Shown here piece by piece: positions 22,158 to 56,523 of a DNA stretch of 64,000 nt. Below the pieces are notes generated by a model. It saw only the letters and a list, made by a program, of their open reading frames with translations. It searched no databases and was not told where the DNA came from. Made by a program: the position numbers and the translations under genes. Source of the DNA: an uncultured Verrucomicrobiota bacterium (lineage in GTDB: Bacteria; Verrucomicrobiota; Verrucomicrobiia; Limisphaerales; UBA9464); the NCBI GenBank assembly GCA_903907995.1, contig CAIVQH010000060.1, positions 186,001 through 250,000 on the forward strand, given 5' to 3'. Position 1 is the first letter of the stretch. Each line of letters starts with the position of its first letter.

Positions 22158-22919
22158 TCAGGCGAGTTGGACGGCTTTCTGTTCGGCTTCCAGCTTGGCG
22201 ATCTCCTCGCTGGCGATGGCCCGGTCTTTCACGGCCTCATCGCTGCGGATCAGGCCGTCGCGCATCACCACGACGCGGCGGCAATAGCGGGCGATGTCGA
22301 GCTCATGGGTGACCATCACCACGGTCATGCCCTGATCGTTCAACTGCTGGAAGATGCCCATGATCTCGATGCTGGTGCGTGAATCGAGATTGCCGGTCGG
22401 TTCATCGGCCAGCAGGAGCTTGGGCTCGTTGACCAGCCCCCGGGCAATGGCCACGCGCTGCTGCTGGCCGCCGGAAAGCTGGCTGGGCGTGTGGTCGAAC
22501 CGCTCGCCCAGACCGACCAGTTCCAGCGCCTTCTGGGCGCGCCGCTTCTGCTCACGGACAGGCGGGCTGGGCCGCGTATAGAGCATGGGCAGCTCGACAT
22601 TTTCCAGCGCCGAGGTGCGGGCGAGGAGGTTGAAACCCTGAAAGACGAAGCCGATCTTGCGGTTGCGCAGGTCGGCGAGCTGATCGCGATCCAGCTCACC
22701 AACATTGACCCCGTCGAGCAGGAACCGGCCGCTGGTGGGGCGGTCGAGGCAGCCCAGCGTGTTCATCATGGTGCTTTTGCCCGAGCCGCTGGCGCCCATG
22801 ATGGCCACGAATTCGCCGGGCTGGATTGTCAGTGTTACCCCGCGGACGGCCTGGACGGCGACCTCGCCGGTCACGTAGGTCTTGCGAAAATCCTCGAGCT
22901 GAATGACGGGTATGCTCAC
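22158..22919 (-). CDS. MacB-type ABC transporter ATPase
   Basis: This 253-residue nucleotide-binding subunit carries Walker [10 protein letters not shown] (about 42-50), the signature LSGGQQQR, Walker [14 protein letters not shown] and the H-loop VTHE, in the LolD/MacB subclass. The start is taken as GTG at 22919, because the longer frame would overlap the adaptor gene and adds an unrelated basic N-terminus. It lies between the adaptor gene (37 nt upstream) and the permease gene (2 nt downstream), so all three are co-transcribed. Confidence 0.93.
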
Positions 22920-22956
22920 GCGCGTAATGATGATCGGTAGGCGATTTTGAACCGGC

Positions 22957-24465
<1,509 letters not shown>

Positions 24466-26808: not shown

Positions 26809-26987
26809 GCTCGAAACTAATCAACCTCTCCCACGCTGGCAACCGAGGCGTACACCTCTCCTGTCTCCTGAATCCTGACTCCTATCTTCTATTTCCCCAG
26901 CAATTCGCCCCATGCGGAAAGCGGTTCACCCCAGCAGCCCTTGCGCGGCGTGCTGATCCTGTGGTCAATGGGGGGCGTCCACCACTC

Positions 26988-40961: not shown

Positions 40962-42953
40962 ATGAAATTTCCTCTCCTTAGCGCCTTTGCGTCTTTCTTG
41001 TTTCTCCCAACGGCCCTGGGTGCAGAACCGCAGATCATCGCGGACTTTGAAGGCGCCGATTATGCCGGCTGGACCACCACCGGCACGGCCTTCGGCGATG
41101 GACCGGCGCATGGCAACCTGCCCGAGCAGTCCCCGGTCGGCGGCTATCGGGGCAAGGGCTACGTCAATTCCTACCATGGCATGGACAAGGCCACCGGCAC
41201 GCTCACCTCCCCCGAGTTCAAGCTCTCGCAGCGCTACCTCAGCTTTCTGGTCGGTGGCGGCGAGGAGGTCGGCAAGACCTGCGTGAATGTGCTAGTGGAT
41301 GACAAGGTCGTGCGTTCGGCAACCGGTCGGGAGGATGAATTCCTGACCACGGCGACGTTTGACCTCGGGGAATTCGCCGGCAAATCCGCCCGCATCCAGA
41401 TCGTGGACGCCGCCACCGGCGGCTGGGGCCACATCAACGCCGATCATTTCATCCTCACCGATACCGCGCCGACGCCTCCTTACGTCCAGAACCCGATGCC
41501 GGTGCCGGAATACGAAGAGGCGCTGCGACCGCAGTTCCACTTCTCAGCGAAACAGGGCTGGCTCAACGACCCCAATGGACTCGTCTTCTCGCAGGGGGAA
41601 TTCCACCTGTTCTTCCAGCACAATCCCGAGGGCCGCGAATGGGGCAACATGACCTGGGGCCATGCCGTCAGCGATGATCTGCTCCACTGGCAACAGCTGG
41701 ACCATGCGCTGTATCCGGACCGGCTGGGCACTATGTTCAGCGGCTCGGCAGTCGTGGATCACGAGAACACCTCGGGCTTCAAGACCGGCAGCCAGCCGCC
41801 GTTGGTCGCCATCTACACCGCCGCCGGCGGCACGAGCGAGGAATCCAAGGGCCATCTCTTCACCCAGTGCATCGCCTATTCGAACGACAAGGGCCGCACC
41901 TGGACCAAGTATTCCGGCAACCCCGTGCTGCACAACATCGGCGATGGCGACCGTGACCCGAAAGTCTTCTGGCACGCCCCTACCAGGCACTGGGTGATGC
42001 CGCTTTACGTGGGCGAAAAGGAGCCGAACAAATTGGACAAGAACGGCAAGCCGTCGAACCGGAACGTCTGCCATTTCTACACGTCTCCCGATCTGAAAAA
42101 CTGGACGTTCGCCAGCAAGTTCTCGGAAGAACTGTTCGAGTGCCCGGGCTTCGTGGAACTGCCGTTGGACGGTGATCCCAAGAACACGCGCTGGGCGCTC
42201 TGGGGTGCCAGCGGCGAGTACTGGCTGGGCCGCTTCGAAGGGCGTGAGTTCAAGGCGGAGACATCGAAACTTCGCGGTGATTTCGGCGCCAACTCCTACG
42301 CGGCCCAGGTCTATGACGACCTCCCCGACAAGCGCGTCGTGTTCATCACCTGGATGCAAGGCGGCAAATATCCCGGCATGCCCTTCAACCAGCAGATGGG
42401 CTTTCCGGTTGAATTGTCGCTGCAGACCACACCGGATGGCATCCGTCTCGTGAAGTGGCCGGTGAAGGAGATCCACGAGATCTTCACCAGCTCGCTGCGC
42501 GAGGATCTGGCCCGTCCCCTTCCTGCCGGCCGGCATGAGTTGAAGTCGGCGGCGGTCGAATTGCTCGACCTGGAACTGGAGTTCCTCCCCGGCACCGCCC
42601 AGACCGTCACACTGGAACTACGCGGCCAGAAGCTCGTCTGGGACGCGAAGGCGGGAGAACTGACCGCCTTCGGCCGTAAGGTGCCGCTCAAGCCCACCCC
42701 GAAGGCGCTCGGACGCCACTCCGATTTCGGCAAGACGTGGGGACCTGACTTCGAGCCTTGGAACGACAGCGTGCGCCTGCGCGTGCTGCTGGATCGCAGT
42801 TCCATCGAGGTGTTTGGCAGCGGCGGCCTGTCTATGGCGTCCTTCTGTTTCATCCCGCGTGAAGCGCCCTCCGCCACGCTCGGGGTCGAGGGCGGCGAAC
42901 TGCCCAAAGCACGCTTCACCGCCCGCAGCCTCAAATCGGCCTGGCGTCCATAA
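40962..42953 (+). CDS. Secreted GH32 fructan/levan/inulin hydrolase
   Basis: It cleaves beta-fructosyl linkages. The 663-residue protein has a signal peptide (SAFASFLFLPTALGA), an extra N-terminal beta-sandwich domain (about 22-170, DFEGADYAGWTTTGTAFGDGPA) of the kind seen in levanases, the GH32 five-blade propeller and the C-terminal sandwich. The catalytic residues are visible: nucleophile Asp203 (WLNDPNG), stabiliser Asp332 (RDPKVF) and acid/base Glu393 (ECPGF). It lies between the sugar-binding protein and permease genes, 4 nt before the latter. Confidence 0.96.
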   Translation: MKFPLLSAFASFLFLPTALGAEPQIIADFEGADYAGWTTTGTAFGDGPAHGNLPEQSPVGGYRGKGYVNSYHGMDKATGTLTSPEFKLSQRYLSFLVGGGEEVGKTCVNVLVDDKVVRSATGREDEFLTTATFDLGEFAGKSARIQIVDAATGGWGHINADHFILTDTAPTPPYVQNPMPVPEYEEALRPQFHFSAKQGWLNDPNGLVFSQGEFHLFFQHNPEGREWGNMTWGHAVSDDLLHWQQLDHALYPDRLGTMFSGSAVVDHENTSGFKTGSQPPLVAIYTAAGGTSEESKGHLFTQCIAYSNDKGRTWTKYSGNPVLHNIGDGDRDPKVFWHAPTRHWVMPLYVGEKEPNKLDKNGKPSNRNVCHFYTSPDLKNWTFASKFSEELFECPGFVELPLDGDPKNTRWALWGASGEYWLGRFEGREFKAETSKLRGDFGANSYAAQVYDDLPDKRVVFITWMQGGKYPGMPFNQQMGFPVELSLQTTPDGIRLVKWPVKEIHEIFTSSLREDLARPLPAGRHELKSAAVELLDLELEFLPGTAQTVTLELRGQKLVWDAKAGELTAFGRKVPLKPTPKALGRHSDFGKTWGPDFEPWNDSVRLRVLLDRSSIEVFGSGGLSMASFCFIPREAPSATLGVEGGELPKARFTARSLKSAWRP

Positions 42954-42957
42954 ACGA

Positions 42958-44304
42958 ATGACCAATGCGCGGCAACAGCTGGCCACGGCGCTCCGCCACT
43001 ATGGGATGGCCGGAGTACTCGTGCTGCTGTGCGCGTTCTTTTCGGCGGTCACAATCCGTGACCAACAGTTGTCCGGTGCGGAGGCCGCTGACAGCCTGGT
43101 GGACCAGCTATCAAAAGCCGGAAAGCAGTCAACGGTGCTGGTGATTGCCCGCGCCACAGATGAGGATCAGCAGTTTGCCAAGTCGCTTCGGGTAAGGCTG
43201 GAAACCGCAGGCCTCGTAGTCGCCGGTGTGGTCACGGGCGAACCCCGTGATGCGCGGAAAGAACTCCAACGGATCAATGATAATGGTGCTGGGCTCGCAA
43301 TCATCGCCGCGACGCCCGAGTGCGCCACCTGGACCATCCTGGCCGATCTGCCCACCAAGTTTCCCGCGCTGGGCAACCCGCGCATCGTGTCACCCCAGGC
43401 CTCACGCTGGCCCGTGTTTCTGACGCGGCAAAATCTTCTGAACGTCGCCAACCAGATTGTCGTGGTTGCCATCCTTTCGGCCGGACTCACCTTCGTCATC
43501 CTAACCAGAGGCATTGACCTGAGCGTGGGGAGCCTCATCGCGCTCGCCGCCGTGGTCGCCACGCGACTGGTACGTGACCGCTTAGGCGGCACTGAAGCAA
43601 CTGGTGCCTCTTTGGTGCTCGCGGCGCTGGCCGGGCTGGCCCTGTGTACGCTCATCGGGTTGGCTTCGGGCGCAGTGGTGGTGCATTTCAATCTGCCGTC
43701 CTTCATCGCCACCCTCGCGGTCATGCAGGCGGCGAGCGGGCTCGCGTTCATCCTTTCCCAGGGCCAGTCCATCTACGAAGTGCCCGAAAGCTCGGCCTGG
43801 CTCGGACGCGGCACGGGACTGTTCGGCCTGCCCCACGCGGTCACGCTCATGCTGCTGGTATTCGCCGCCGCCCACATCCTGCTGACCCGAACCGTGCTGG
43901 GACGGCATCTCTACGCCGTCGGTGGCAATGAGCAGGCGGCCCGGCTGTCCGGCGTGCCGGTTGGGAGGGTAAAACTTTTTGCCTACGCCGCGTGCGCCGC
44001 GCTGGCCGGGCTGGGTGGCATCGTGATGGCCTCGCAGCTCAAGAGCGGCGCCCCGACCTACGGCACCAGCTACGAGCTTTATGCCATCGCCGCCGTCGTG
44101 GTGGGCGGCACCAGCCTGACCGGTGGCCAGGGCAACGTGCTCGGCACGCTGGTCGGGGCGCTGATCATCGCTGTGATCAACAACGGCATGAACCTGACCG
44201 GTGTGGAAAGCTACACGCAGAAAGTGGTGCTTGGTCTGGTCATCCTGGCGGCCGTGCTGCTCGACCGCCTGAAGGGCCGCTTCGGTCCCAATGCGAGACA
44301 TTGA
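42958..44304 (+). CDS. RbsC-type ABC sugar permease with extra periplasmic domain
   Basis: The 448-residue permease matches RbsC-like transporters from about residue 160 onward (LTRGIDLSVGSLIALAAV, EQAARLSGVPVGRVKLFAYAACAALAGLGGIV, VGGTSLTGGQGNVLGTLVGALIIAVINNGM). An insertion of about 115 residues follows the first membrane helix (about 15-33) and contains alternating strands and helices (QSTVLVIARAT, GLVVAGVVTGE, GLAIIAATPE). That insertion would lie in the periplasm and is absent from typical RbsC. It is coupled to the GH32 gene (4-nt gap). Confidence 0.93.
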   Translation: MTNARQQLATALRHYGMAGVLVLLCAFFSAVTIRDQQLSGAEAADSLVDQLSKAGKQSTVLVIARATDEDQQFAKSLRVRLETAGLVVAGVVTGEPRDARKELQRINDNGAGLAIIAATPECATWTILADLPTKFPALGNPRIVSPQASRWPVFLTRQNLLNVANQIVVVAILSAGLTFVILTRGIDLSVGSLIALAAVVATRLVRDRLGGTEATGASLVLAALAGLALCTLIGLASGAVVVHFNLPSFIATLAVMQAASGLAFILSQGQSIYEVPESSAWLGRGTGLFGLPHAVTLMLLVFAAAHILLTRTVLGRHLYAVGGNEQAARLSGVPVGRVKLFAYAACAALAGLGGIVMASQLKSGAPTYGTSYELYAIAAVVVGGTSLTGGQGNVLGTLVGALIIAVINNGMNLTGVESYTQKVVLGLVILAAVLLDRLKGRFGPNARH

Positions 44305-44347: not shown

Positions 44348-46315
44348 GTGAAATTTCCCGGAAGCCCCCTAAGCCGCCTTGCATGGCTGCTGCTTCTGAT
44401 TGCTTGGCTTCCCCTGCCCGGCTTGCGGGCTGCTCCTGTGACTACCGTCACCACCAACCTCTGGTCGCTGCGGCCGCTCCAGCATCCGGCCATTCCGCCG
44501 GCGTCCGGTCCCCCCGAGTGGCGCAACAACCCGATTGATGCGTTTGTCGCCAACAAGCTGCGGCAAAACGGGCTGCAGCATGCCCCGCCCGCGGATCGCG
44601 GCACGCTTCTCCGGCGGCTCAGCTTCGATCTCATCGGTTTGCCACCCACCGCGGAAGAGACCGCCGCCTTTCTCCGCGACTCGAACGACGATGCGTACGA
44701 ACGGGCCGTGGACCGCCTGCTGGCCTCCTCACATCACGGCGAACGCTGGGCGCGGCATTGGCTGGATGTCGTGCGCTTCGGCGAATCGCAGGGTTTCGAA
44801 TACGACCGTATCCGCGAGCACGCGTGGCGGTACCGCGATTACGTCATCCAAGCCTTCAATGACGACAAGCCCTACGACCGCTTCATCCGCGAGCAGCTTG
44901 CCGGCGACGTGCTGCCGGAAGCGAATGCCGGGAGTGTCATCGCCACCGGGTTTCTGGTCGCGGGGCCGTGGGATCAGGCCGGGCACAGTTCCGCCAGCGC
45001 GAGCGTCCGCGCGATGGTTCGCGAGGCGGAGCTGGAAGACATTGTGGGCACCGTGGCGCAGACGTTTCTGGGTGTGACGCTCAATTGCGCCCGCTGTCAC
45101 AACCACAAGTTCGACCCGATCCCGCAGCGAGATTATTACCGCGTGAAGGCTGTGTTTCAGGGCGTGAATCAAGGCGACCGACACTTTCCCGGAGGCAGCA
45201 CCAACGACTGGAGCTACGCGGCAAACGCCAGCCAACCCGAGGCCACGTTCATCCTGAACCGGGGTGAGCCCGACAAATCGAAGGAACAGGTAACGCCCGG
45301 GGCATTGGAGGCGCTCGCCACCCATTCCGGCGAATTTGGTCTGGCCGCAGATTCTCCTGAAGGCGAGCGCCGCCGGCGCTTCGCGGACTGGGTGGCCTCT
45401 CCCGAAAACCCGCTCACCGCACGCGTCATCGTGAACCGCGTCTGGCAGCACCATTTCGGGCGCGGGATCGTCGCCACGCCCAACGATTTCGGAAAAATGG
45501 GCGAGGCACCCTCGCATCCCGAGCTGCTCGACTGGCTGGCCGCTTGGTTTGTCGCGCCCGATGGGGGCAACTGGAGCCTGAAGCGGTTGCACAAGCTCAT
45601 CGTCATGAGTGCGGCCTACCGGCAGTCATCAGTAATCTGTGAGTCAGTGATCAGCGAACCAGTGATCAGTAAAACAGCCGAACGTGCACGCACTCGAAGA
45701 CTGAACACTGATTTACCGATTACTGGTTCACTGACTACTGACTTACGGGCGCAACAGCGCGACGCCGACAACCGCCTACTCTGGCGCTTCACTCCGCATC
45801 GGCTGGAGGCGGAGGAATTGCGGGACGCCCTGCTGGCGCTCAGCGGTGAACTGAACCCGCAGATGGGCGGGCCAGGGTTCCGTCCATTCCGTCACGTCAC
45901 CAACGGCGGCCAGAACGAATACTTCGCCTCCGACCCCGCCGGAGCGGAGTTCAATCGTCGAACCATCTACCGCATCTCGGTCCACTCCGCCCGTGATCCG
46001 CTGCTCGACTCACTGGACTGCCCCGAATTCTCGACCCGCACGCCGGTTCGTGCCAACACCACGACTCCCTTGCAGGCGCTGTCGCTGATGAACGATTCCT
46101 TTGTACAACGGAAGGCGGCGAAGCTCGCTGAACGTGTGCAGCACGAAGCCGGGCCTGATCTGAAGCGGCAGGTGAAACAGCTCTGGTTCCTTGCCCTGGA
46201 CCGGGAGCCCAAACCCACCGAACTCCGTGACGCCGTGAAACTCGCCCGTGAACAGGGGATGGCGAGCACGGCCTGGGTGCTGCTCAACTCGAATGAGTTT
46301 GTTTTTGTGAGATAG
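44348..46315 (+). CDS. PSD1 protein A (DUF1549/DUF1553), short form
   Basis: The 655-residue secreted protein starts at GTG and has a signal peptide (LAWLLLLIAWLPLPGLRAAP), then DUF1549 (about 55-265) with a CxxCH site (CARCH, Cys about 247) and DUF1553 (about 355-650). It has no large module between the two, unlike its three paralogs. Residues about 427-467 are encoded by the palindromic repeat at 45628-45746. The function is unknown; the family is a hallmark of Planctomycetes and Verrucomicrobia and the CxxCH suggests c-type heme. It pairs with the DUF1501 gene 25 nt downstream. Confidence 0.9.
   Translation: MKFPGSPLSRLAWLLLLIAWLPLPGLRAAPVTTVTTNLWSLRPLQHPAIPPASGPPEWRNNPIDAFVANKLRQNGLQHAPPADRGTLLRRLSFDLIGLPPTAEETAAFLRDSNDDAYERAVDRLLASSHHGERWARHWLDVVRFGESQGFEYDRIREHAWRYRDYVIQAFNDDKPYDRFIREQLAGDVLPEANAGSVIATGFLVAGPWDQAGHSSASASVRAMVREAELEDIVGTVAQTFLGVTLNCARCHNHKFDPIPQRDYYRVKAVFQGVNQGDRHFPGGSTNDWSYAANASQPEATFILNRGEPDKSKEQVTPGALEALATHSGEFGLAADSPEGERRRRFADWVASPENPLTARVIVNRVWQHHFGRGIVATPNDFGKMGEAPSHPELLDWLAAWFVAPDGGNWSLKRLHKLIVMSAAYRQSSVICESVISEPVISKTAERARTRRLNTDLPITGSLTTDLRAQQRDADNRLLWRFTPHRLEAEELRDALLALSGELNPQMGGPGFRPFRHVTNGGQNEYFASDPAGAEFNRRTIYRISVHSARDPLLDSLDCPEFSTRTPVRANTTTPLQALSLMNDSFVQRKAAKLAERVQHEAGPDLKRQVKQLWFLALDREPKPTELRDAVKLAREQGMASTAWVLLNSNEFVFVR
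45628..45746. repeat. Palindromic TCAGTGA-rich element in PSD1 A, translated in frame
   Basis: Left arm 45639-45677 and right arm 45708-45746 are inverted copies matching at 32 of 39 positions around a 30-nt loop. The arms are built from repeated (A)TCAGTGA-like units. The element lies 2 nt after the YRQ codons and runs in frame, encoding Ser/Ile/Val/Thr-rich sequence (SVICESVISEPVISK on the left arm). Confidence 0.85.
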
Positions 46316-46340
46316 AGACCTTGCTCATGCTCCTGCTTCG

Positions 46341-47762
46341 ATGAACTCCCTCAACCGCCGCGACTTCCTCTTCCGCTCCGCCTGCGGTTTCGGCGGCGTC
46401 GCGCTGGGCTGGCTCTGCAAGGAGGAGGCGCGGGCGGCCGCCCTGGCTTCGCCTTACGCGCCCAAACCGGCGATGTTCCCGGCGCGGGCCAAACGCGTCA
46501 TCCACATCTGCGCGCTCGGGGGGGTGAGCCATGTGGACACCTTCGACTACAAGCCGGAGCTCGAGCGCCGGCACGGACAGGATTCAGGTCGCAAGTTCGA
46601 CACTTTCTTCAGCCAGCCAGGCCGGCTGCTCAAAAGCCCGTTTGCCTTCCGCCAATACGGCGCCAGCGGTCGCTGGGTTTCAGACCTGCTGCCCCATCTC
46701 GCGGGCTGCGTGGATGACCTCACGTTCATCCACTCCATGCACAGCAAGAGCTCGAACCACACGCCGGCCACGTTCCTGATGAACTCCGGGTTCACGTTCA
46801 ATGGCTTTCCCAGCGCGGGCGCCTGGGTGAGCTACGGTCTGGGCTCGGAGAATCAGAATCTGCCCGCATACGTCGTGCTGCCCGACCCGCGGCAGTTGCC
46901 GGCGGGTGGTTCCATCAACTGGACGAACGGGTTCCTGCCGGCGGTGCATCAGGGCGTCGCCTTTCGCTCCGGGGAGCGGGATCCGATTCCCGATCTGGCC
47001 ACACCTTCCGACATCTCCCCTGCCCGCCGCGAAGCCAGTGTGCGCCTGCTCGAGAAACTCAACGCCGCCGACGCCGCGACGCATCCCGGTGATTCTGCTC
47101 TGGCCGCGCGCATCCGAGCCTATGAACTGGCCGCCCAGATGCAGCTTCGCGTGCCCGAACTGGTGGAGCTTTCACGCGAGACGGCCGCCACGAAGTCCGC
47201 CTACGGCCTCGACCATCCCAACGCGGCCACGGCTGGCTTTGCGCGCAATTGCCTGCTCGCCCGGCGGCTCAGTGAACGCGGGGTTCGCTTCGTGCAGATT
47301 TTCAACGGCGGTCAGTTCGGTTCCCCGCGCATCAACTGGGATGGTCACGAGGACATCGTGGAAAACCACCGCAAGCAGGCCCTGACCATGGATCAGCCCG
47401 TGGCGGCCCTGCTGCGCGACCTCAAGCAGCGAGGCCTGCTCGACGAAACCGTGGTGCTGTGGACCACCGAGTTTGGTCGCACCCCGATCACGCAGGGCAT
47501 CGATGGCAAGGGACGCGACCACCACCAGCATGGCTTCACGATCTGGGCCGCCGGCGCGGGGCTGAAGCCTGGCCTGGCCTTCGGAGCCACCGATGAGATC
47601 GGCTACGATGCAGTCGAGAACCCGGTGGAATTCTACGACGTCCACGCCACGCTGCTGCGATTGCTCGGCGTGGAACACACCAAGCTTGTCTTCCGCCACA
47701 ACGGCGTGGATCGCCGGCTTACCGATGTGCACGGCGAGGTCATCCAGGGAATTCTCGCATGA
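46341..47762 (+). CDS. DUF1501 protein A (Tat-exported, sulfatase/phosphatase fold)
   Basis: The 473-residue protein starts with a twin-arginine signal (NRRDFLFRSACGFGGVALG). It shows the DUF1501 pattern: CALGGVSHVDTFDYKPEL near the N-terminus, AYELAAQMQLRVPEL in the middle, FGRTPITQG and a C-terminal VHGEVIQGIL. The fold is that of the alkaline phosphatase/sulfatase superfamily, but the usual catalytic Cys/Ser and metal ligands are not obvious, so activity is unproven. Its stop overlaps the next PSD1 start by 4 nt (ATGA). Confidence 0.9.
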   Translation: MNSLNRRDFLFRSACGFGGVALGWLCKEEARAAALASPYAPKPAMFPARAKRVIHICALGGVSHVDTFDYKPELERRHGQDSGRKFDTFFSQPGRLLKSPFAFRQYGASGRWVSDLLPHLAGCVDDLTFIHSMHSKSSNHTPATFLMNSGFTFNGFPSAGAWVSYGLGSENQNLPAYVVLPDPRQLPAGGSINWTNGFLPAVHQGVAFRSGERDPIPDLATPSDISPARREASVRLLEKLNAADAATHPGDSALAARIRAYELAAQMQLRVPELVELSRETAATKSAYGLDHPNAATAGFARNCLLARRLSERGVRFVQIFNGGQFGSPRINWDGHEDIVENHRKQALTMDQPVAALLRDLKQRGLLDETVVLWTTEFGRTPITQGIDGKGRDHHQHGFTIWAAGAGLKPGLAFGATDEIGYDAVENPVEFYDVHATLLRLLGVEHTKLVFRHNGVDRRLTDVHGEVIQGILA

Positions 47763-50524
47763 AGTGGGGCGCGCGCATGATGGGAACCCTGTTGCTGGTG
47801 ATCAGCGCGGTTTCAGCGTGCGCCGACGTCTCGACAAATGCGGACCACTGGGCCTATCGACCACTCACGGCGCCCCCGGTTCCGCTCCTTTCGGCTGGTG
47901 CCCGGCCTTCGGTCAATCCCGTCGATTCGTTCATCGCGGCGAAACTCGCCGAACACGGCCTGTCGCCGGCTCCCGAGGCGGACCGGCGCACGCTGTTGCG
48001 CCGGGTCAGCTTCGATCTCATCGGGCTTCCACCGACGCCGGAGGAGCTGCGCGCCTTCCTGACCGATACCTCGACCAACGCTTACGAACGCGTCGTGGAT
48101 CGCCTGCTCGCCTCACCGCGCTATGGCGAGCGTTGGGCCCGGCACTGGATGGATGCCGCCCACTTCGCGGAGACGCACGGCCATGACCAGGATCGCATCC
48201 GCACGAACGCCTGGCCCTATCGCGACTACCTCATCGCCTCGTTCAAGGACGACAAACCCTACGCCCGCTTCGTTCGGGAACAGGTCGCGGGCGATGTGCT
48301 CTTTCCGACTGACCCTCAGGCCACCGTCGCGCTTGGCTTCATCGCCGCCGGCCCGTGGGATGAAAGCTCATTGCGCGATATCCGCGAGGACACGCTGGAC
48401 CGCCAGGTGGCCCGCTATCTGGACCGCGACGACATGCTGACGACCGTGATGCAGACGTTTGCCAGTACAACCGTCCAATGCGCTCGCTGCCACGACCACA
48501 AGTTCGACCCGGTTTCCCAGCGGGATTACTACGCACTGCAGGCGGTGTTTGCCGGCGTGGACCGTGCCAATCGCGTGTTCGATGCCGACCCGCAGGTTCA
48601 CGTCCGCCGGCAGGACCTCATGCATGAGCGTCGCCGGGTGAAACAAAACGACCGCACGTTGCTGCTTTCGGCGGAAACCTCGCGTGCGGTCACGGATTGG
48701 GAGGAGCGCCGCGCTGCACACCCGGTCGCCTGGTCCACGGTGGACGCGCAGACCTTCGTCTCGGTCGGCGGCGCGACGCTGACGAAACAGGCCGATGGTT
48801 CGTTGCTTGCCAGCGGTACGCGGCCCGACCGTGATACGTACACAATCTCTGCGCCTTCCCCGTTGTCCACGATTTGCGGCATCCGCCTCGAAGTCCTGCC
48901 CGACGCGAGCCTGCCGCACCAGGGGCCGGGGCGTAACGAGAATGGAAACTTCCACCTCAGCGAGTTTCAGTTGCTCGCGTTTGAGCCGGGTGCCAAAGCC
49001 GCGCGCGAAATTCCATTGGCGAATCCCAGCGCTGATTTCGACCAGCAGGACTGGGGCATTGCCCGTGCGTTGGATGGTGACGAAAAGACGGCCTGGGGTA
49101 TCCACCCGCGTGAGGGTGAGGCCCATCAGGCGGTGTTCGAGCTGAAGGAACCGCTCACGCTGACCCCTGGCACAATGCTGGTGTTTGTGCTCAAGCAATT
49201 GCACGGCGAAGGCCACCTGATCGGCCGTCCGAGATTGGCGGTCACCGATGACCGGCCTCCGCTACGGGTGCTGCCAACCGAACTGGCAGCGATTGTCGCA
49301 CTCCCGGTCGCCCGCCGGACGGATGAACAGCGGGCGCTGCTCGCTGCAGACGTTCTCAACGAACGCATTCGACAAGCCCTTGCCGCCCTGCCGTCGCCGT
49401 CGCTGGTCTATGCCGCCGCCAATGATTTCGAGCCAGATGCCAGCCTCAAGCCATCGGGTGTTCCGCGCATCGTGAATCTGTTAAAGCGCGGGGAGATCAC
49501 GAAACCGATGGAAGTTATTTCTCCGGGCACGCTGTCGTGTGTGACGGCGCTCCCCGCACGCTTCGAACTCGCCGATTCAGCCGATGAAGGCGCGCGCCGT
49601 GCCGCGTTGGCGAAGTGGCTTACTGCCAAAGATAACCCGCTCACCTGGCGCTCAATTGTAAATCGCATGTGGCACCACCACTTTGGCTGGGGGCTGGTGG
49701 ACACGCCGAACGACTTCGGCCGGATGGGCGGCACCCCATCGCATCCGGAGCTGTTGGACTGGCTGGCGGTTTGGTTCCGCGATGATGCGAAAGGCTCCTT
49801 CAAAGGATTTCACCGCCTTCTGGTGACCAGCGCCACCTACCGCCAAGCGTCAGTGATCAGTAAGTCAGTAATCAGTGAGTCAGTGAAGCAGGGGCTCCCC
49901 CATTCCAAAGCACTGATTACTGACGCGCTGGTTACTGTTTCACTAGCCAGAACACCGGAGCTCGACTCCGAGAACAGACTCCTGGCCCATATGAGTCGGG
50001 TGCGCCTCGACGCCGAGTGCGTCCACGACGCTGTGTTGCAAATCAGCGGACGGCTCGACCTGCGCATAGGCGGTCCGAGCGACCGGCAGTTTGATTTGCA
50101 GCCCGGCATCCACGTCACACCCCGGGTGGATTACACCAAGTTCGAGGTGGATGGCGATGCGGGCCGGCGTCGCAGCGTCTATCGCTTCCTCTTCCGTACC
50201 CTGCCCGACCCGTTCATGGAGGCGCTCGACTGTCCTGCCGGCGACCAGCTCACGCCCGCGCGCAACAACTCCGTGACCGTCCAGCAGGCGCTTGCGCTGT
50301 GGAACAACGCCTTTGTCGCCCGGAACGCCGAACACTTCGCCGCCCGCCTGGAGCGCGAAGCGCAAACGCCCGAAGCCCGGACTCGACGCGCTTTCGAACT
50401 CGCTTTCGGTCGCGAGGCCTCGGCCGAGGAGGTAGCCGAGTTCACCGGGCATGCCCGGCAATACGGTTTGGCGAACTGCTGCCGACTTCTGTTCAATGCC
50501 AACGAGTTCGTCTTCGTCAACTGA
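47759..50524 (+). CDS. PSD1 protein B (DUF1549/DUF1553)
   Basis: The 921-residue paralog of PSD1 A has a signal peptide (GTLLLVISAVSACA), DUF1549 with CARCH, a central module (about 300-520, containing GPGRNENGNFHLSEF and ALDGDEKTAWGIHP) and DUF1553. The central module resembles beta-sandwich modules found in other PSD1 proteins. The in-frame palindromic repeat lies at 49850-49945 after YRQ. It is translationally coupled to DUF1501 A by ATGA and is followed after 13 nt by DUF1501 B. Confidence 0.9.
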   Translation: MKWGARMMGTLLLVISAVSACADVSTNADHWAYRPLTAPPVPLLSAGARPSVNPVDSFIAAKLAEHGLSPAPEADRRTLLRRVSFDLIGLPPTPEELRAFLTDTSTNAYERVVDRLLASPRYGERWARHWMDAAHFAETHGHDQDRIRTNAWPYRDYLIASFKDDKPYARFVREQVAGDVLFPTDPQATVALGFIAAGPWDESSLRDIREDTLDRQVARYLDRDDMLTTVMQTFASTTVQCARCHDHKFDPVSQRDYYALQAVFAGVDRANRVFDADPQVHVRRQDLMHERRRVKQNDRTLLLSAETSRAVTDWEERRAAHPVAWSTVDAQTFVSVGGATLTKQADGSLLASGTRPDRDTYTISAPSPLSTICGIRLEVLPDASLPHQGPGRNENGNFHLSEFQLLAFEPGAKAAREIPLANPSADFDQQDWGIARALDGDEKTAWGIHPREGEAHQAVFELKEPLTLTPGTMLVFVLKQLHGEGHLIGRPRLAVTDDRPPLRVLPTELAAIVALPVARRTDEQRALLAADVLNERIRQALAALPSPSLVYAAANDFEPDASLKPSGVPRIVNLLKRGEITKPMEVISPGTLSCVTALPARFELADSADEGARRAALAKWLTAKDNPLTWRSIVNRMWHHHFGWGLVDTPNDFGRMGGTPSHPELLDWLAVWFRDDAKGSFKGFHRLLVTSATYRQASVISKSVISESVKQGLPHSKALITDALVTVSLARTPELDSENRLLAHMSRVRLDAECVHDAVLQISGRLDLRIGGPSDRQFDLQPGIHVTPRVDYTKFEVDGDAGRRRSVYRFLFRTLPDPFMEALDCPAGDQLTPARNNSVTVQQALALWNNAFVARNAEHFAARLEREAQTPEARTRRAFELAFGREASAEEVAEFTGHARQYGLANCCRLLFNANEFVFVN
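49850..49945. repeat. Palindromic TCAGTGA-rich element in PSD1 B, translated in frame
   Basis: Arms 49866-49886 and 49917-49937 match in inverted orientation at 17 of 21 positions. The left arm encodes SVISKSVISESV and the right arm LITDALVT. It sits at the same site, right after YRQ, as in PSD1 A, C and D. Confidence 0.8.
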
Positions 50525-50537
50525 ACCGCTGCCTACC

Positions 50538-51992
50538 ATGCGCCCCTTTCACTCCGTCTTCCCTTCCCGCCGCGAATTCCTCTGGCGTTTCGGCGGCGGC
50601 CTCGGTGGTGCAGCCCTCGCGCAGATGCTCGGGGCGGATCGCTTGTTGGGCGCGGACGCTGCGGTCCATTCCACGCCGGGCATCCTGAGCGGCGGATTGC
50701 ACCATGCCCCGCGGGCGAAACGCGTCATTCAGCTCTTCATGAATGGAGGCGCGAGCCAGATGGACCTGTTCGACTATAAGCCGGCGCTGTTTCGCCGCGC
50801 CGGCGAGGCCTTCAATCCCGGTGCGGGTGAGCACGTCGAGGCTCCGACCAGCGAGCCCGGCAAGGTGCTGAAGCCGCCCTTCGAATTCCGCCAGCATGGG
50901 CAGTCCGGTCGCTGGGTGAGCAGCCTGCTGCCGCACCTCGCGGGCTGCGTGGACGACCTTGCCCTCCTCATGGCGATGCAGTCCCGGACAAATGTCCACG
51001 GGCCCGGCAGGTACCTGATGAACACCGGCTTCCTGCTGCCGGGCTTCCCCTGCCTCGGTGCCTGGGTGAGCTACGCGCTGGGCAGCGAGTGCGACAACCT
51101 GCCGACCTTCGTGGTGCTGCCAGATACCAAGGGACTGCCCTACAACCAGAAGGGCAACTTCAGCGCCGGTTTCCTGCCGGTCGCGAACCAGGGCACGATC
51201 ATCCAGACCGCTTCGCCGACGCCCATCGCCGACCTGCGCCCACCCTCTTCCGCCGGCTACATCACACCGGAGGCGGACCGCGCCGGGCTCGATCTGTTGC
51301 GCCAGATGAACCGCCGGCATCTCGCCGCCAACGACGGCGATGCAAGGCTCGAGGGGCGTATCCAGTCCTACGAGCTGGCCGCGAAGATGCAGCTCAGCGC
51401 GCCCGAGGTTTTTGCGCTCGACGGCGAGACCGAGGCCACGCGCCAGCTCTATGGGCTCGGCGAGAAGACCACCGAGGACTTCGGCCGTCGCTGCCTGCTC
51501 GCACGACGGCTGGTGGAGCGCGGCGTGCGCTTTGTGCAGGTGTGGAGCGGGGCCGGCGGGCCGACCAACAACTGGGATAATCACGCCAACATCGAGAAGG
51601 AGCTTCCGCCGATGTGCGCCGCCACGGACCAGCCCATCGCCGCCCTGCTCAAGGACCTCAAGGCCCGCGGCCTGCTCGACGACACTCTTGTGCTGTGGAC
51701 GACCGAGTTCGGCCGGATGCCCTTCTCCCAAAGTGGCAGCGGCCGCGACCACAATGGCGGCACCTTCGTCGGCTGGATGGCGGGCGGCGGCGTAAAGCCC
51801 GGCGTGGCCTACGGTGAAAGCGACGAGTGGTCATGGAAGGCGGCCCACAATCCGGCCACAAACTACGATTTCCACGCCACGGTGCTGCACCTGTTGGGCC
51901 TCGACCACACCCGGCTTACTTTCCGCCACGACGGTTCCAACCGCCGTCTCACCGACGTGCATGGCGAAGTCATCCACGAACTCATCTCATGA
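50538..51992 (+). CDS. DUF1501 protein B (Tat-exported)
   Basis: The 484-residue paralog of DUF1501 A has a twin-arginine signal (SRREFLWRFGGGLGGAALA), LFMNGGASQMDLFDYKP, SYELAAKMQLSAPEVFAL and the closing VHGEVIHELIS. The ATG at 50538 is chosen because the next codons begin the signal; an upstream frame would overlap PSD1 B. The last codon overlaps the ATG of the NTF2-like lipoprotein gene (ATGA). Function is unknown, as for the other members. Confidence 0.9.
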   Translation: MRPFHSVFPSRREFLWRFGGGLGGAALAQMLGADRLLGADAAVHSTPGILSGGLHHAPRAKRVIQLFMNGGASQMDLFDYKPALFRRAGEAFNPGAGEHVEAPTSEPGKVLKPPFEFRQHGQSGRWVSSLLPHLAGCVDDLALLMAMQSRTNVHGPGRYLMNTGFLLPGFPCLGAWVSYALGSECDNLPTFVVLPDTKGLPYNQKGNFSAGFLPVANQGTIIQTASPTPIADLRPPSSAGYITPEADRAGLDLLRQMNRRHLAANDGDARLEGRIQSYELAAKMQLSAPEVFALDGETEATRQLYGLGEKTTEDFGRRCLLARRLVERGVRFVQVWSGAGGPTNNWDNHANIEKELPPMCAATDQPIAALLKDLKARGLLDDTLVLWTTEFGRMPFSQSGSGRDHNGGTFVGWMAGGGVKPGVAYGESDEWSWKAAHNPATNYDFHATVLHLLGLDHTRLTFRHDGSNRRLTDVHGEVIHELIS

Positions 51993-52441
51993 AAACTGTC
52001 CTCCCCCTCCTCGCCTGCGCCCTGCTGGCCGTCGGCTGCCGTCACCTGACACCCGCATGGCAGATCGATTCCGGTGCCGAGGTCCGCGCCGTGATCGACC
52101 AGCAATTGGCGGACTGGAATGCCGGCGACATCAACGGCTTCATGCGCGGCTACGCGAAGTCCTCCTCGACGCGCTTTGCTTCGGGCGACGACGTGACGCG
52201 CGGCTGGCGGACTGTGTTTGACCGGTACGTGGCCCACTACGGCGACCGCGCCGCGATGGGCAAGCTGGCGTTCTCGGAATTGGAAATCACCCCGCTCTCG
52301 CCGGTGAGTATCGAGGTCTTCGGCCATTGGCGGCTGGAACGCGAAAAGGATTCGCCGCACGGCCTGTTCACGCTGCTGTTCCGGAAGACGGCGAGCGGCT
52401 GGCGGATCGTCCATGACCACACGTCCGCGGCGACGCCATGA
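51989..52441 (+). CDS. NTF2-like lipoprotein (SnoaL/DUF4440-type fold)
   Basis: The 150-residue protein has a lipoprotein signal peptide with lipobox LAVGC (Cys17) and a small domain with the NTF2-like pattern: an N-terminal helix (EVRAVIDQQLADWNAGDINGFMRGY) and curved strands ending TLLFRKTASGWRIVHDHTS. Such domains bind small ligands or act as enzymes or subunits. It is inserted between DUF1501 B and PSD1 C, with 4-nt overlaps at both ends, so its product is made with theirs in similar amounts. Confidence 0.85.
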   Translation: MKTVLPLLACALLAVGCRHLTPAWQIDSGAEVRAVIDQQLADWNAGDINGFMRGYAKSSSTRFASGDDVTRGWRTVFDRYVAHYGDRAAMGKLAFSELEITPLSPVSIEVFGHWRLEREKDSPHGLFTLLFRKTASGWRIVHDHTSAATP

Positions 52442-55035
52442 AGTGGCGCCTGAACATCATGCTGCTGGCGGTCACAACCGCTGCCCAGCTCTTGGCGGCC
52501 GATGCCACCAACCACTGGTCGTTTCAGCCGGTTGTCAGGCCCGTTGTTCCGGTCACCGTATCCGGGGCACGCAATCCGATTGATCACTTCATCGGCGCAA
52601 AACTGGCCGAGCATCAGCTCGGACCCGCGCCCGAAGCGGACCGGCGCACGCTGATTCGCCGGGTTTCGTTCGACCTTATCGGCCTGCCGCCGACGCCGGA
52701 GGAGGCTGATGCCTTCGTCCGCGACCCACGACCGGACGCATACGAGCGGCTGGTGGACCGGCTGTTGGATTCGCCGCATTTCGGCGAGCGCTGGGCGCGC
52801 CACTGGCTGGATGTGGTGCGCTTCGCCGAGACGCATGGCTTTGAGATGAACAATCCTCGGCCCAACGCCTGGCCCTATCGCGACTACGTCATCCGCGCCT
52901 TCAACGACGACAAACCTTACGACCAGTTCGTCCGCGAGCAGCTGGCCGGCGACGCCTTGGGCGCGGACGAGGCGACCGGATTCCTCGTTGCGGGAGCTTG
53001 GGATCAGGTGAAAAGCCCCGATGAGGTGCTGACGAAGAACCAGCGCGCCGATGAATTGCACGACATGGTGAGCGTCACGGGCAGCGCGTTTCTCGGTCTG
53101 ACCGTTGGCTGTGCGCGCTGCCACGATCACAAGTTCGACCCGATCCCCCAGCATGACTACTACGCGCTCAAGGCCGTCTTTGAGGGCGTGCAGCACGGCG
53201 AACGTGAGCGACGGGTCAATGAGAACGGAACCCGGGAGGACGAGCTGAAGCAGATCCGTTCACGTCTCTCGGAAATCGACGCGGCGCTCGTCCGTTTCGA
53301 GCCGGTCGCGCAGGTCGGCGTGGTGGATACGAACCGCCTGCGTGGACCCGTTCATCCGCGTCGCAATGTGGAACATTTCGCACCGATCATGGCGAAACGG
53401 CTGCGTTTCACCATCCTGGCCACCACGGGAGCGGAGCCCTGTATCGACGAACTGGAGGCATTCACTGTTGGAACCGACCTCACCAATGTTGCGCTGGCGA
53501 GTTTCGGCACGAAAGCGACGGCCTCAGGTACGTATCCGAATTCGGAACTGCACCGGTTGGAGCACATTAATGACGGCCGCCATGGCAACAGCCGGAGCTG
53601 GATCTCAAGCGAGAAGGGCAAGGGTTGGGTCGAGTTGGAGTTCCCGCAGAGTGTCCTGCTCGAACGCGTCGTCTGGGCACGGGATCGTGAGGAGAAGTTC
53701 GGTGACCGGCTGGCCACCGATTACCGCCTGGAAGTTGCCGATGACGTCGGCCATTGGCGCGTCGTCGCCTCCTCCGCAGACCGTCGTGCCTTCAAACCCG
53801 GTCAGCCCTATGAGCCGGATCTTCGTCCATACGCGGCCACGGAGACGGCAGAGACGCGGCTCCACCGCCTACTGGACGAGCAGAAGCAACTGACCACGCG
53901 GGCACACGAATTGGCCGACCGGCCCATGATCTATGCCGGTGATTTCCGGCAGCCGGAAGCGACGCGCCGTTTCCAGCGCGGTGATCCGATGCAGCCGCGC
54001 GAGGAAGTAACGCCAGGAGTTTTGACGCGGATCGCGCTGCCGGGAACGGACAGGGCTCGGAGCATTTCAAATGCGATTCGCAGCCCACAGAATGGAGAAT
54101 CGAATCAGAGCCTCCTGACGTCGGCTCCTACGGAGGAACAGCAGCGCCGATGGGCGCTCGCCGACTGGATAACCAGCCCGGCCAACCCGCTGACCGCCCG
54201 CGTCATCGTGAACCGGCTGTGGCAGCATCATTTCGCCGAGGGGTTGGTCAGCACTCCGAGCGATTTCGGCGTGAACGGTGCCCGCCCGACCCACCCCGAA
54301 CTGCTCGACTGGCTGGCAGCCGAACTGGTTTCTCACGGCTGGAGCCTCAAACACATCCACCGCCTGATTGTGACCAGCGCCACCTACCGGCAGAGGTCAT
54401 TGATCAGTGAATCAGTGATCAGTAAGACAGAGAAAAACCCACGCACCGCCAAACTGAAAACTGATTCACTTGCGCAACGACGCGACGCTGGCAACCGCCT
54501 CCTCTGGCGCTACCCCGCGCACCGGCTGGAGGCCGAGCCGATTCGCGATGCGATGCTGGCGGTGGGGGGGCGGCTCGATTTGCGCATGGGCGGCCCAGGC
54601 TGGTCGCCCTTCGTACCCAACGAGAACTATGTGCGCGTGTATGTGCCCAAGGAGAGTTTCGAAGCCGGGGACTTTCGCCGGATGATCTATGCCACGGTCG
54701 TACGCCAAAGGCCCGATGGCGTGTTCGGCGCCTTTGACTGTCCCGACGGCGGGCAGATCGCTCCCAAACGCACTCGTAGCACCACCCCGCTACAGGCACT
54801 GAACCTTCTGAATAGCGGCTTTGTCCAGCAGGCTGCCGGCCTGTTCGCCGAGCACCTGCCGGCCAATGCCGGTGGTGCGCCGGAAGCTCAGGCACGGGAG
54901 GCTTTCCGATTGGCGTTCCAGCGCGAACCGTCAGCCGATGAGCTGCAGGCGTCGGCCCGATTCATCCGTGAGGAAAACCTGCAGCTCTTCTGCCGCGCTT
55001 TGCTGAACAGCAACGAATTCGTCTTCGTCTTCTAG
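52438..55035 (+). CDS. PSD1 protein C (DUF1549/DUF1553) with discoidin-like module
   Basis: The 865-residue paralog has a signal peptide (IMLLAVTTAAQLLAA), DUF1549 with CARCH (about residue 225), a discoidin/F5-8C-like module (about 315-455, HINDGRHGNSRSWISS and GWVELEFPQSVLLERVVWARD) and DUF1553. Discoidin modules typically bind sugars. The palindromic repeat at 54397-54470 follows YRQ in frame. Translation is coupled to the NTF2-like gene by ATGA, and DUF1501 C starts 9 nt after the stop. Confidence 0.9.
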   Translation: MKWRLNIMLLAVTTAAQLLAADATNHWSFQPVVRPVVPVTVSGARNPIDHFIGAKLAEHQLGPAPEADRRTLIRRVSFDLIGLPPTPEEADAFVRDPRPDAYERLVDRLLDSPHFGERWARHWLDVVRFAETHGFEMNNPRPNAWPYRDYVIRAFNDDKPYDQFVREQLAGDALGADEATGFLVAGAWDQVKSPDEVLTKNQRADELHDMVSVTGSAFLGLTVGCARCHDHKFDPIPQHDYYALKAVFEGVQHGERERRVNENGTREDELKQIRSRLSEIDAALVRFEPVAQVGVVDTNRLRGPVHPRRNVEHFAPIMAKRLRFTILATTGAEPCIDELEAFTVGTDLTNVALASFGTKATASGTYPNSELHRLEHINDGRHGNSRSWISSEKGKGWVELEFPQSVLLERVVWARDREEKFGDRLATDYRLEVADDVGHWRVVASSADRRAFKPGQPYEPDLRPYAATETAETRLHRLLDEQKQLTTRAHELADRPMIYAGDFRQPEATRRFQRGDPMQPREEVTPGVLTRIALPGTDRARSISNAIRSPQNGESNQSLLTSAPTEEQQRRWALADWITSPANPLTARVIVNRLWQHHFAEGLVSTPSDFGVNGARPTHPELLDWLAAELVSHGWSLKHIHRLIVTSATYRQRSLISESVISKTEKNPRTAKLKTDSLAQRRDAGNRLLWRYPAHRLEAEPIRDAMLAVGGRLDLRMGGPGWSPFVPNENYVRVYVPKESFEAGDFRRMIYATVVRQRPDGVFGAFDCPDGGQIAPKRTRSTTPLQALNLLNSGFVQQAAGLFAEHLPANAGGAPEAQAREAFRLAFQREPSADELQASARFIREENLQLFCRALLNSNEFVFVF
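54397..54470. repeat. Palindromic TCAGTGA-rich element in PSD1 C, translated in frame
   Basis: Arms 54406-54422 and 54454-54470 match in inverted orientation at 15 of 17 positions. The left arm encodes SLISESVISK and the right arm LKTDSL. It is the shortest of the four copies, at the same codon position. Confidence 0.8.
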
Positions 55036-55044
55036 CCGCCACTC

Positions 55045-56523
55045 ATGCCCGATCAACCTCTCAGCAATGCCGGCCGCTGGCTTCTGAACCGCCGTGACTT
55101 TTTGCGTCACGGTGGCACGGGTCTCGGCGGCATCGCGCTGGCGACGTTGCTGGCGGAACAGCGCCTGCTCGCGGCGAAGGAGCCGATCCGACCCGACTGG
55201 TCGCCGCAGCAACCGAATGCGCCCCGCCCGCCGCATTTCGCCCCGAAAGCCAAGAACGTCCTCGTGATCTTCTGTTCGGGGGCACTGAGTCATCTCGACA
55301 CCTGGGATTACAAGCCCGAGCTGATTCGCCGCCACGGCGAGCCGCTACCCGGTAATGAGAAGCTCATCACCTTCCAAGGCGAACAGGGAGCGCTCACACG
55401 GCCGCTGTGGGAGTTCCGCCCGCGTGGTCAGAGCGGGAAGATGATTTCCAACCTGCTGCCGAATCTCGCCGAGCTCGCCGACGACCTGTGCTTCATCCAT
55501 TCGATGACCGCCAAGTCGAACACGCACGGTCCGGCGGAGAACCAGATGAGCACAGGCTTCACCCTCGACGGCTTTCCCAGCATGGGCGCGTGGGCGAGTT
55601 ACGCGCTGGGCACGGAGAATCAGAATCTGCCAGCTTTCGTGGCCATTCCCGATCCGCGCGGCGTGCCGCAGATGGGACCGAACCACTGGAACTCCGCGTT
55701 TCTGCCGGCGGTGTTTCAGGGCCTGGCGTTCAATGCCGACCAGCCCATTCCGAACCTGGCGACTCCCAAGGGCATTACGCCACGGGCCGAACGGAGCACC
55801 CGCGACTTCCTGCGCTTTCTCAACGACAAGCATTTGGAACAGCACCCCGGCGACACGGAACTCAGCGCCCGGATCGCGAGTTACGAGCTCGCGGCGAGGA
55901 TGCAGCTGAGCGCGGCGGAGGTGGGCGATTTCACGAAGGAGTCGCCGGCCACGCTGGCGTCATACGGCGTGGGCGACACGAATCCGCTGAAATCGCGCTT
56001 TGCGAAGAACTGCCTGCTCGCACGCCGGTTGGTGGAGCGCGGGGTGCGCTTTGTGCAGCTCTTCAACGGCAGTTATGCGATGGGCGAAGGCGTCGGCAAC
56101 TGGGACGGGCACAAGACGCTCAAGGAGCAGTACAGCGTCCATGCGCCCATCCTCGATCAGCCCGCCGCCGCCCTGCTTCGTGACCTGAAGGCGCGCGGCC
56201 TGATGGAGAGTACGCTGGTCGCCTTCGTGACCGAGTTTGGCCGGATGCCCACCTTCCAGAAAGGGGCTCAGGGTCGCGACCACAACCCGCACGGCTTTAC
56301 GGTCTGGCTCACCGGCGCGGGCGTGAAGCGCGGCTTCAGTCACGGCGCCACGGATGACTTCGGCCACAAGGCGGTCACCGATGCCTGCACCATCTACGAC
56401 CTGCACGCGACCCTCTTGCACCTGCTCGGCCTGGATCACGAGCGGCTGACCTTTTATCACAACGGCACCGAGCGCCGCCTCACCGATGTGCATGGTGAGG
56501 TGATCACCCCGATTCTTGCCTGA
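55045..56523 (+). CDS. DUF1501 protein C (Tat-exported)
   Basis: The 492-residue paralog has a twin-arginine signal ([19 protein letters not shown]), [36 protein letters not shown] and the closing [11 protein letters not shown]. The N-terminus has about 15 residues before the twin arginines. The next gene starts 3 nt after its stop. It is tied to PSD1 C by position and spacing. Confidence 0.9.

Follow-up and report, generated by a model that had tools for sequence, protein, structure and literature searches.

The described transport systems closest to the locus reported here are RbsC and the other permeases of the CUT2 family, the pores of which are described as homodimeric (PMC12096829). The maltose transporter, a member of CUT1, offers a second point of comparison; its permease subunit MalF carries a large outer-loop domain, P2, next to a separate binding protein, MalE, and the two are reported to interact (PMC3150292). 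Another arrangement is that of OpuA and GlnPQ, where binding-protein folds, several per complex, are tethered to the transmembrane part (PMC11065425; PMC8025302); for OpuA, the binding domains are also reported to interact (PMC11065425). As to the motors of sugar importers, the stand-alone ATPases MsmK, MsiK and MsmX serve CUT1 transporters, and work on C. bescii assigns a dedicated ATPase to each CUT2 system while the CUT1 systems share MsmK (PMC8579813). Searches of open-licence literature brought up no description of a single-lobe permease or of a shared CUT2 ATPase.

The locus compared with these systems lies in a window of 64,000 nucleotides from an uncultured Verrucomicrobiota bacterium (G000:C60:186001-250000), the source assembly of which comprises 5.1 Mb in 60 contigs and is 95.67% complete. 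The permease encoded there belongs to a monosaccharide importer of the CUT2 type (Table 1). BPD_transp_2 is the sole Pfam match of the protein (144.9 bits, cut-off 26.8) and the best NCBIfam model is that of ribose permease (NF007067; 251.5 bits, cut-off 398); the protein falls short of the cut-off for each of the NCBIfam permease equivalogs listed and is therefore not called RbsC itself. With RbsC and other CUT2 permeases it shares the PF02653 core and a binding protein encoded in the cluster, for which NCBIfam likewise gives RbsB as the best model with a score under the cut-off, but it differs from them by a domain of 120 residues following the first helix and by a cluster devoid of RbsA. 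The permease gene starts four bases past a GH32 gene, which itself lies 3′ of the RbsB-like gene; judging from this arrangement, the substrate of the importer is probably fructose freed by the adjoining GH32 enzyme. At other loci a GH32 gene is found downstream of the permease, and near some of them PfkB-type kinases are encoded. Downstream of the permease in the window follow a DUF1549/DUF1553 protein and a DUF1501 protein (Pfam), the first of repeated gene pairs of this type which occupy positions 44438-56523 on the same strand as the transporter; Pfam assignments were made for the first pair only.

Table 1. Features of the transporter locus (positions in the window) and the stand-alone ATPase gene (position on contig C54 of the same genome)
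Feature	Position	Strand	Properties
RbsB-like binding protein, 319 aa	39966..40925	+	Peripla_BP_4, 194.9 bits; ATG chosen with RRR-containing signal-like N-terminus
GH32 beta-fructosidase-type hydrolase, signal-like N-terminus	40962..42953	+	PF00251, 224.3 bits
RbsC-type (CUT2) permease	42958..44304	+	ATG start, 448 aa, built-in extra domain; PF02653 at residues 159-432
Predicted first membrane helix, residues 4-31	42967..43050	+	Secondary structure of AlphaFold2 model
Extra domain, residues 34-153	43057..43416	+	Predicted fold: type I periplasmic binding protein C-terminal lobe
Conserved permease core, residues 157-440	43426..44277	+	Pfam match, alignment, BtuC-type fold
Third RbsA-type ATPase, stand-alone	C54:31020-32507		496 aa, two-domain RbsA/AraG-type

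An insertion of about 115 residues with alternating strands and helices, placed between the first helix and the permease core, had already been noticed in a sequence-only reading of this DNA, and the description was accurate: about 120 residues separate the two parts, and the order of elements is predicted to be helix, strand, helix, strand, helix, strand, short helices and a short strand. An AlphaFold2 model of the whole permease, built with 77 sequences, has a mean pLDDT of 87.8, and averages taken by block within the domain range from 74 to 91; the domain modelled alone reaches 80.3, and the values of both models rule out a disordered stretch. That the insertion is an artefact of gene calling is ruled out by its recurrence in relatives, the full-length alignment and the folded model. 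When the lone domain was compared with known folds, 116 of its 120 residues aligned with residues 175-314 of LuxP (4yp9; Z 11.0, rmsd 3.0) and as many with ribose-binding protein over its residues 100-239 (2gx6; Z 10.9, rmsd 3.4), in both cases the range which we take to be the C-terminal lobe. In this comparison, a model that lacks a clear match typically peaks at Z 7 to 8 and has fallen to 4 to 5 by rank 50; here Z was still 9.4 at rank 50. Going by title, 49 of the 50 best rows listed can be assigned to the type I binding proteins or to others sharing their fold, such as LacI, LpoA and mGluR; the remaining title (7ylt) is uninformative. The same lobe was recovered with the whole-permease model, the core of which resembles BtuC-type permeases. 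Foldseek returned just one match to the lone domain at E <= 0.001; most of its top 50 are binding proteins of type I or receptors with the same fold, and the few others include acyl-CoA synthetases and an Argonaute MID domain. Judged by these models, the extra domain is folded like the C-terminal lobe of a type I sugar-binding protein, which would make a docking or sugar-related role, as suggested in the sequence-only reading, more plausible. Each permease chain contains one such lobe in the models, and the two lobes which form the ligand cleft of a type I binding protein are thus not present within the chain.

The domain is predicted to share the fold of this lobe with RbsB, LuxP and LsrB; it differs from them in being a single lobe anchored in a permease and in having no significant sequence profile match. 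Comparison of 77 such domains with Pfam at E <= 1 gave Peripla_BP_6 in 26 and Peripla_BP_4 in 16, all below the cut-off; 72 other Pfam families also matched, the next most frequent in 8 of the 77 members, which are not independent of each other. For the domain of the window, the match to the Pfam binding-protein families (PF13407, PF13458) amounts to 14.5 bits against a cut-off of 31.7. Ten other members were viewed singly: the binding-protein matches of six of them and of the window fall on the same profile stretch (Peripla_BP_6 119-203, Peripla_BP_4 105-198), and these seven begin at domain residue 7-9, in register with the lobe (profile 105-203); the other four had no match or matched other families. 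Some matches to families other than binding proteins are equal or stronger, for example VWA with 4.4e-4 in L239. Descent of the domain from a binding protein is unproven because its profile comparison (hhalign) with 36 neighboring binding proteins was not significant (probability 1.8%, score 20.3; controls: 19.9 for the reversed profile, 17.4 for the best of 40 column shuffles); the best alignment falls on the other lobe of the binding proteins. Searched against the sequences of solved structures, the domain profile found a designed protein as its best match (E 0.0063) and the permease nothing at E <= 0.01.

Permeases of this kind recur in relatives of the organism. Matches which start at query residue 40 or before, and hence include the region of the insertion, occur in at least 73 of the 195 genomes of the order, and the permease is present in 33 of the 50 genomes of the family; among 387 genomes searched across the phylum, at least 11 matched the domain profile, few candidates being scored per genome. 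Contigs representing one genome per species contained 398 relatives of the permease, the best 80 of which were analysed. According to the record titles used as taxon labels, some of which, such as Klebsiella pneumoniae (L203), are surely wrong for the contig, 13 of these 80 are of Planctomycetota type and 4 of Acidobacteria or Terriglobia, the rest being mostly of Verrucomicrobiota type. Full-length permeases for alignments and tree were obtained from 76 of the 80 loci (L186, L214, L228 and L241 were dropped). Among plasmid records, 1946 match the permease, none of them over 80% of its length. Five residues of the domain (P96, R100, W125, W151 and P152) are invariant in the window and the 76 full-length relatives. 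Conservation peaks at the motif GEPxDAR (residues 94-100) in the loop past the second strand (3.57 bits); on average it amounts to 2.77 bits in the loops after strands, 2.01 bits in those before strands and 2.36 bits in the rest of residues 40-144. W125 is situated after the third strand of the domain; in binding proteins, strand ends of this kind presumably face the cleft.

The sequence-only reading was also right in that the cluster has a binding protein and a permease and lacks an RbsA-type ATPase: neither the open reading frames nor an ATPase search revealed such a gene there. The only ABC ATPase among the matches in the window is a single-domain protein (22158-23051) encoded beside a MacB/FtsX-like gene; it was rejected as the motor of the permease on account of this neighbor. 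The connection drawn in that reading between the extra domain and the missing ATPase did not hold. On the tree of 77 permease cores, RbsA is encoded within 5 kb of the permease in 41 cases and absent in 32, the remaining four (L174, L199, L204, L232) being unclassified because too little upstream DNA is available, and at least 11 changes between these states are needed; the ATPase gene has therefore been lost or moved repeatedly, independently of the domain. Since 41 of the 73 classified permeases have both the domain and a nearby RbsA, it was rejected that the domain replaces the ATPase or accompanies its loss; moreover, RbsA is encoded elsewhere in the genome of the window. The gene order in other families of the order is binding protein-RbsA-permease (e.g., L088, L093, L096, L098), that in the window and in G095, G064 and G169 binding protein-GH32-permease; in G201, G225 and G226 the GH32 gene is also directly upstream of the permease, and the stretch read gave no match to a binding protein. 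In the window and six of its relatives, the GH32 gene thus fills the position taken by RbsA in other relatives. Several relatives without RbsA encode an unclassified protein of approximately 400 amino acids and a shikimate-dehydrogenase-like protein between binding protein and permease (L195:8635-9903 and L195:7812-8678).

Two findings bear on what the sequence-only reading had named as speaking against it, namely a co-regulated RbsA homolog at another locus together with an insertion predicted to be disordered: the search for an orphan RbsA-type ATPase, which it had proposed, did turn one up on contig C54, while the insertion is predicted to be folded. Seven RbsC-type permeases are encoded in the genome; four of them form pairs at C28 and C37, each pair adjoining one RbsA and one binding protein, and the three single ones (that of the window on C60, and those on C54 and C8) have no RbsA alongside. 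Further permease matches on C41 belong, as judged by gene content, to clusters of the branched-chain amino-acid type. Relatives of the stand-alone RbsA, 65-100% identical to it and one of them in two pieces, exist in 40 of the 50 family genomes; the linked kinds are at most 47% identical. No match to a permease (five queries) or binding protein (three queries) was found around the stand-alone gene in any of 20 other genomes, the stretches read spanning 7.6-18 kb and, in four of them, the contig ending within 3 kb on one side. The 33 family genomes with the permease comprise 15 without an adjacent RbsA, 16 with one and two unclassified; the stand-alone RbsA is present in 14 of the former 15 vs. 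11 of the 16 (Fisher p = 0.17; adjacency was counted by hand, for G195, G196 and G203 from match lists only). One genome, G232 (79% complete), contains the permease and gave zero RbsA matches. The likeliest function of the stand-alone ATPase, as far as gene content can tell, is that of a shared motor of this permease and others. It would then resemble MsmK, MsiK and MsmX, as a stand-alone ATPase which is conserved without a permease beside it and could serve several sugar transporters, but those serve CUT1 systems and the candidate is of the two-domain RbsA/AraG type, for CUT2. Alternatively, the linked RbsA of C28 or that of C37 may power the permease; both genes are present in the genome, and the cytoplasmic permease segment LGR-YAVGGN-AARLSG, which is conserved across the family, may permit promiscuity. 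This is unlikely, as each of the two already has a permease pair and a binding protein of its own and as no other partner is apparent for the stand-alone gene.

Regarding the other two single permeases, the gene on C54 is found in a cluster (54.8-57.9 kb; L011) which consists of a binding protein, an RbsC-type permease (at 55.8 kb) and a myo-inositol oxygenase, without an ATPase, and which is a probable inositol importer; a permease of the inositol type is present in 43 of the 50 family genomes, with RbsA adjoining, by coordinates, in at least 8. The permease on C8 (G000:C8:52610-53758; L012:7610-8758) is a lone RbsC-type protein of 382 amino acids which also has an insertion behind its first helix, in the same position but shorter (about 40 residues); the surrounding 16 kb contain no binding-protein or ATPase match.

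Taken as a whole, the system may be a CUT2 importer, probably for fructose, which has a lobe built into the first outer loop of its permease as a docking site and is powered by the shared stand-alone RbsA, an explanation to which we give an even chance of being correct. Since CUT2 pores are homodimers, there would be two lobes per complex, one tethered over the pore by each permease subunit. The tethered lobes would position the separate RbsB-like protein, acting as a permanent docking lobe much like MalF-P2 holds MalE; the layout, a large outer-loop domain in the permease plus a separate binding protein, is common to both, but MalF belongs to CUT1 and the permease of the window to CUT2. The stand-alone ATPase, finally, would drive this permease and other CUT2 permeases without an ATPase of their own.

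Docking of the separate binding protein is the role that we take to be likeliest for the domain; the bold alternative is a trap made by the permease itself, in which the two lobes of the homodimer would come together above the pore as a symmetrical, two-lobed sugar site, and the permease could catch sugar whether the separate binding protein takes part or not. The conserved residues cluster at the strand-end edge of the domain, which we assume to correspond to the cleft-forming edge in binding proteins, and would be well placed for such a site. A single lobe per protomer, as predicted, and the homodimeric pores reported for CUT2 (PMC12096829) also fit this arrangement, as do three of the 77 tree rows (L227, L245, L209), for which the stretch read gave no match to a binding protein. 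On the other hand, a separate binding-protein gene is kept near the permease at most loci. Further, known type I binding proteins pair an N-lobe with a C-lobe, not two alike, and we consider the trap distinctly unlikely. A correspondingly small chance applies to its generalized form, by which there would be a branch of CUT2 importers, in organisms labeled Verrucomicrobiota, Planctomycetota and Acidobacteria, with one lobe per subunit, the lobes of the homodimer trapping sugar with each other or with a free binding protein, and with a shared stand-alone ATPase.

The domain diverges faster than the core, pairs of permeases with 80-85% identity in the core averaging 52% in the domain (168 pairs). 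An extreme case is the closest relative of the window, G095 (L083): identity between the two amounts to 94% in the core, 97% in the binding protein and 94% in the GH32 enzyme, yet to no more than 28% in the domain. At the DNA level, identity between the two drops from about 0.9 to 0.48-0.63 between positions of approximately 43060 and 43430 (about 370 bases) and immediately returns, the borders being sharp. Such a pattern is suggestive of an exchange of the domain through recombination, with fast divergence a possible alternative; no donor was found, the nearest other domain being 35% identical. Sharp borders around a domain so different from its counterpart in G095 could also be read as the mark of a fast-evolving shield or gate with little role in transport, shaped by toxins or phages which enter via sugar permeases, and RbsC is indeed described as a translocator for a CDI toxin in recipient cells (PMC7690452). 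This is very unlikely given that the G095 protein is the lone outlier of its kind among the 53 compared, that the five residues named above are invariant in all 77, and that the predicted fold is that of a transport partner.

The least probable explanation is decay, the permease having lost its ATPase and being now a relic or a facilitator: the ATPase gene is indeed missing from the cluster in the window and in relatives, but the core is strongly conserved (94% identical to G095 and 75-88% to other relatives likewise without an adjacent RbsA), as are the binding protein and GH32, and a stand-alone RbsA is present.

If the docking explanation is true, the transporter would be an intermediate between ABC importers with free and with fused binding proteins, made with a single lobe. 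OpuA and GlnPQ, which like the permease have a binding-protein fold tethered to the transmembrane part, possess complete binding domains of two lobes and do without a separate binding protein, unlike the permease of the window with one lobe and a binding protein apart. The part of each lobe in docking and gating could then be addressed directly, and a user of a single lobe would be informative because type I binding proteins are thought to have descended from paired single lobes. Likewise, with a CUT2 counterpart to MsmK, an RbsC gene without a neighboring ATPase need not signify a broken transporter.

Two further genes may be mentioned. A lone binding protein of the Peripla_BP_4 family is encoded on C4 (G000:C4:39568-40533; L082:7568-8533), a contig without any permease match of this genome. 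The window also encodes, at 26961-29909, a protein of 982 residues with cytochrome c554-like and TPR matches.
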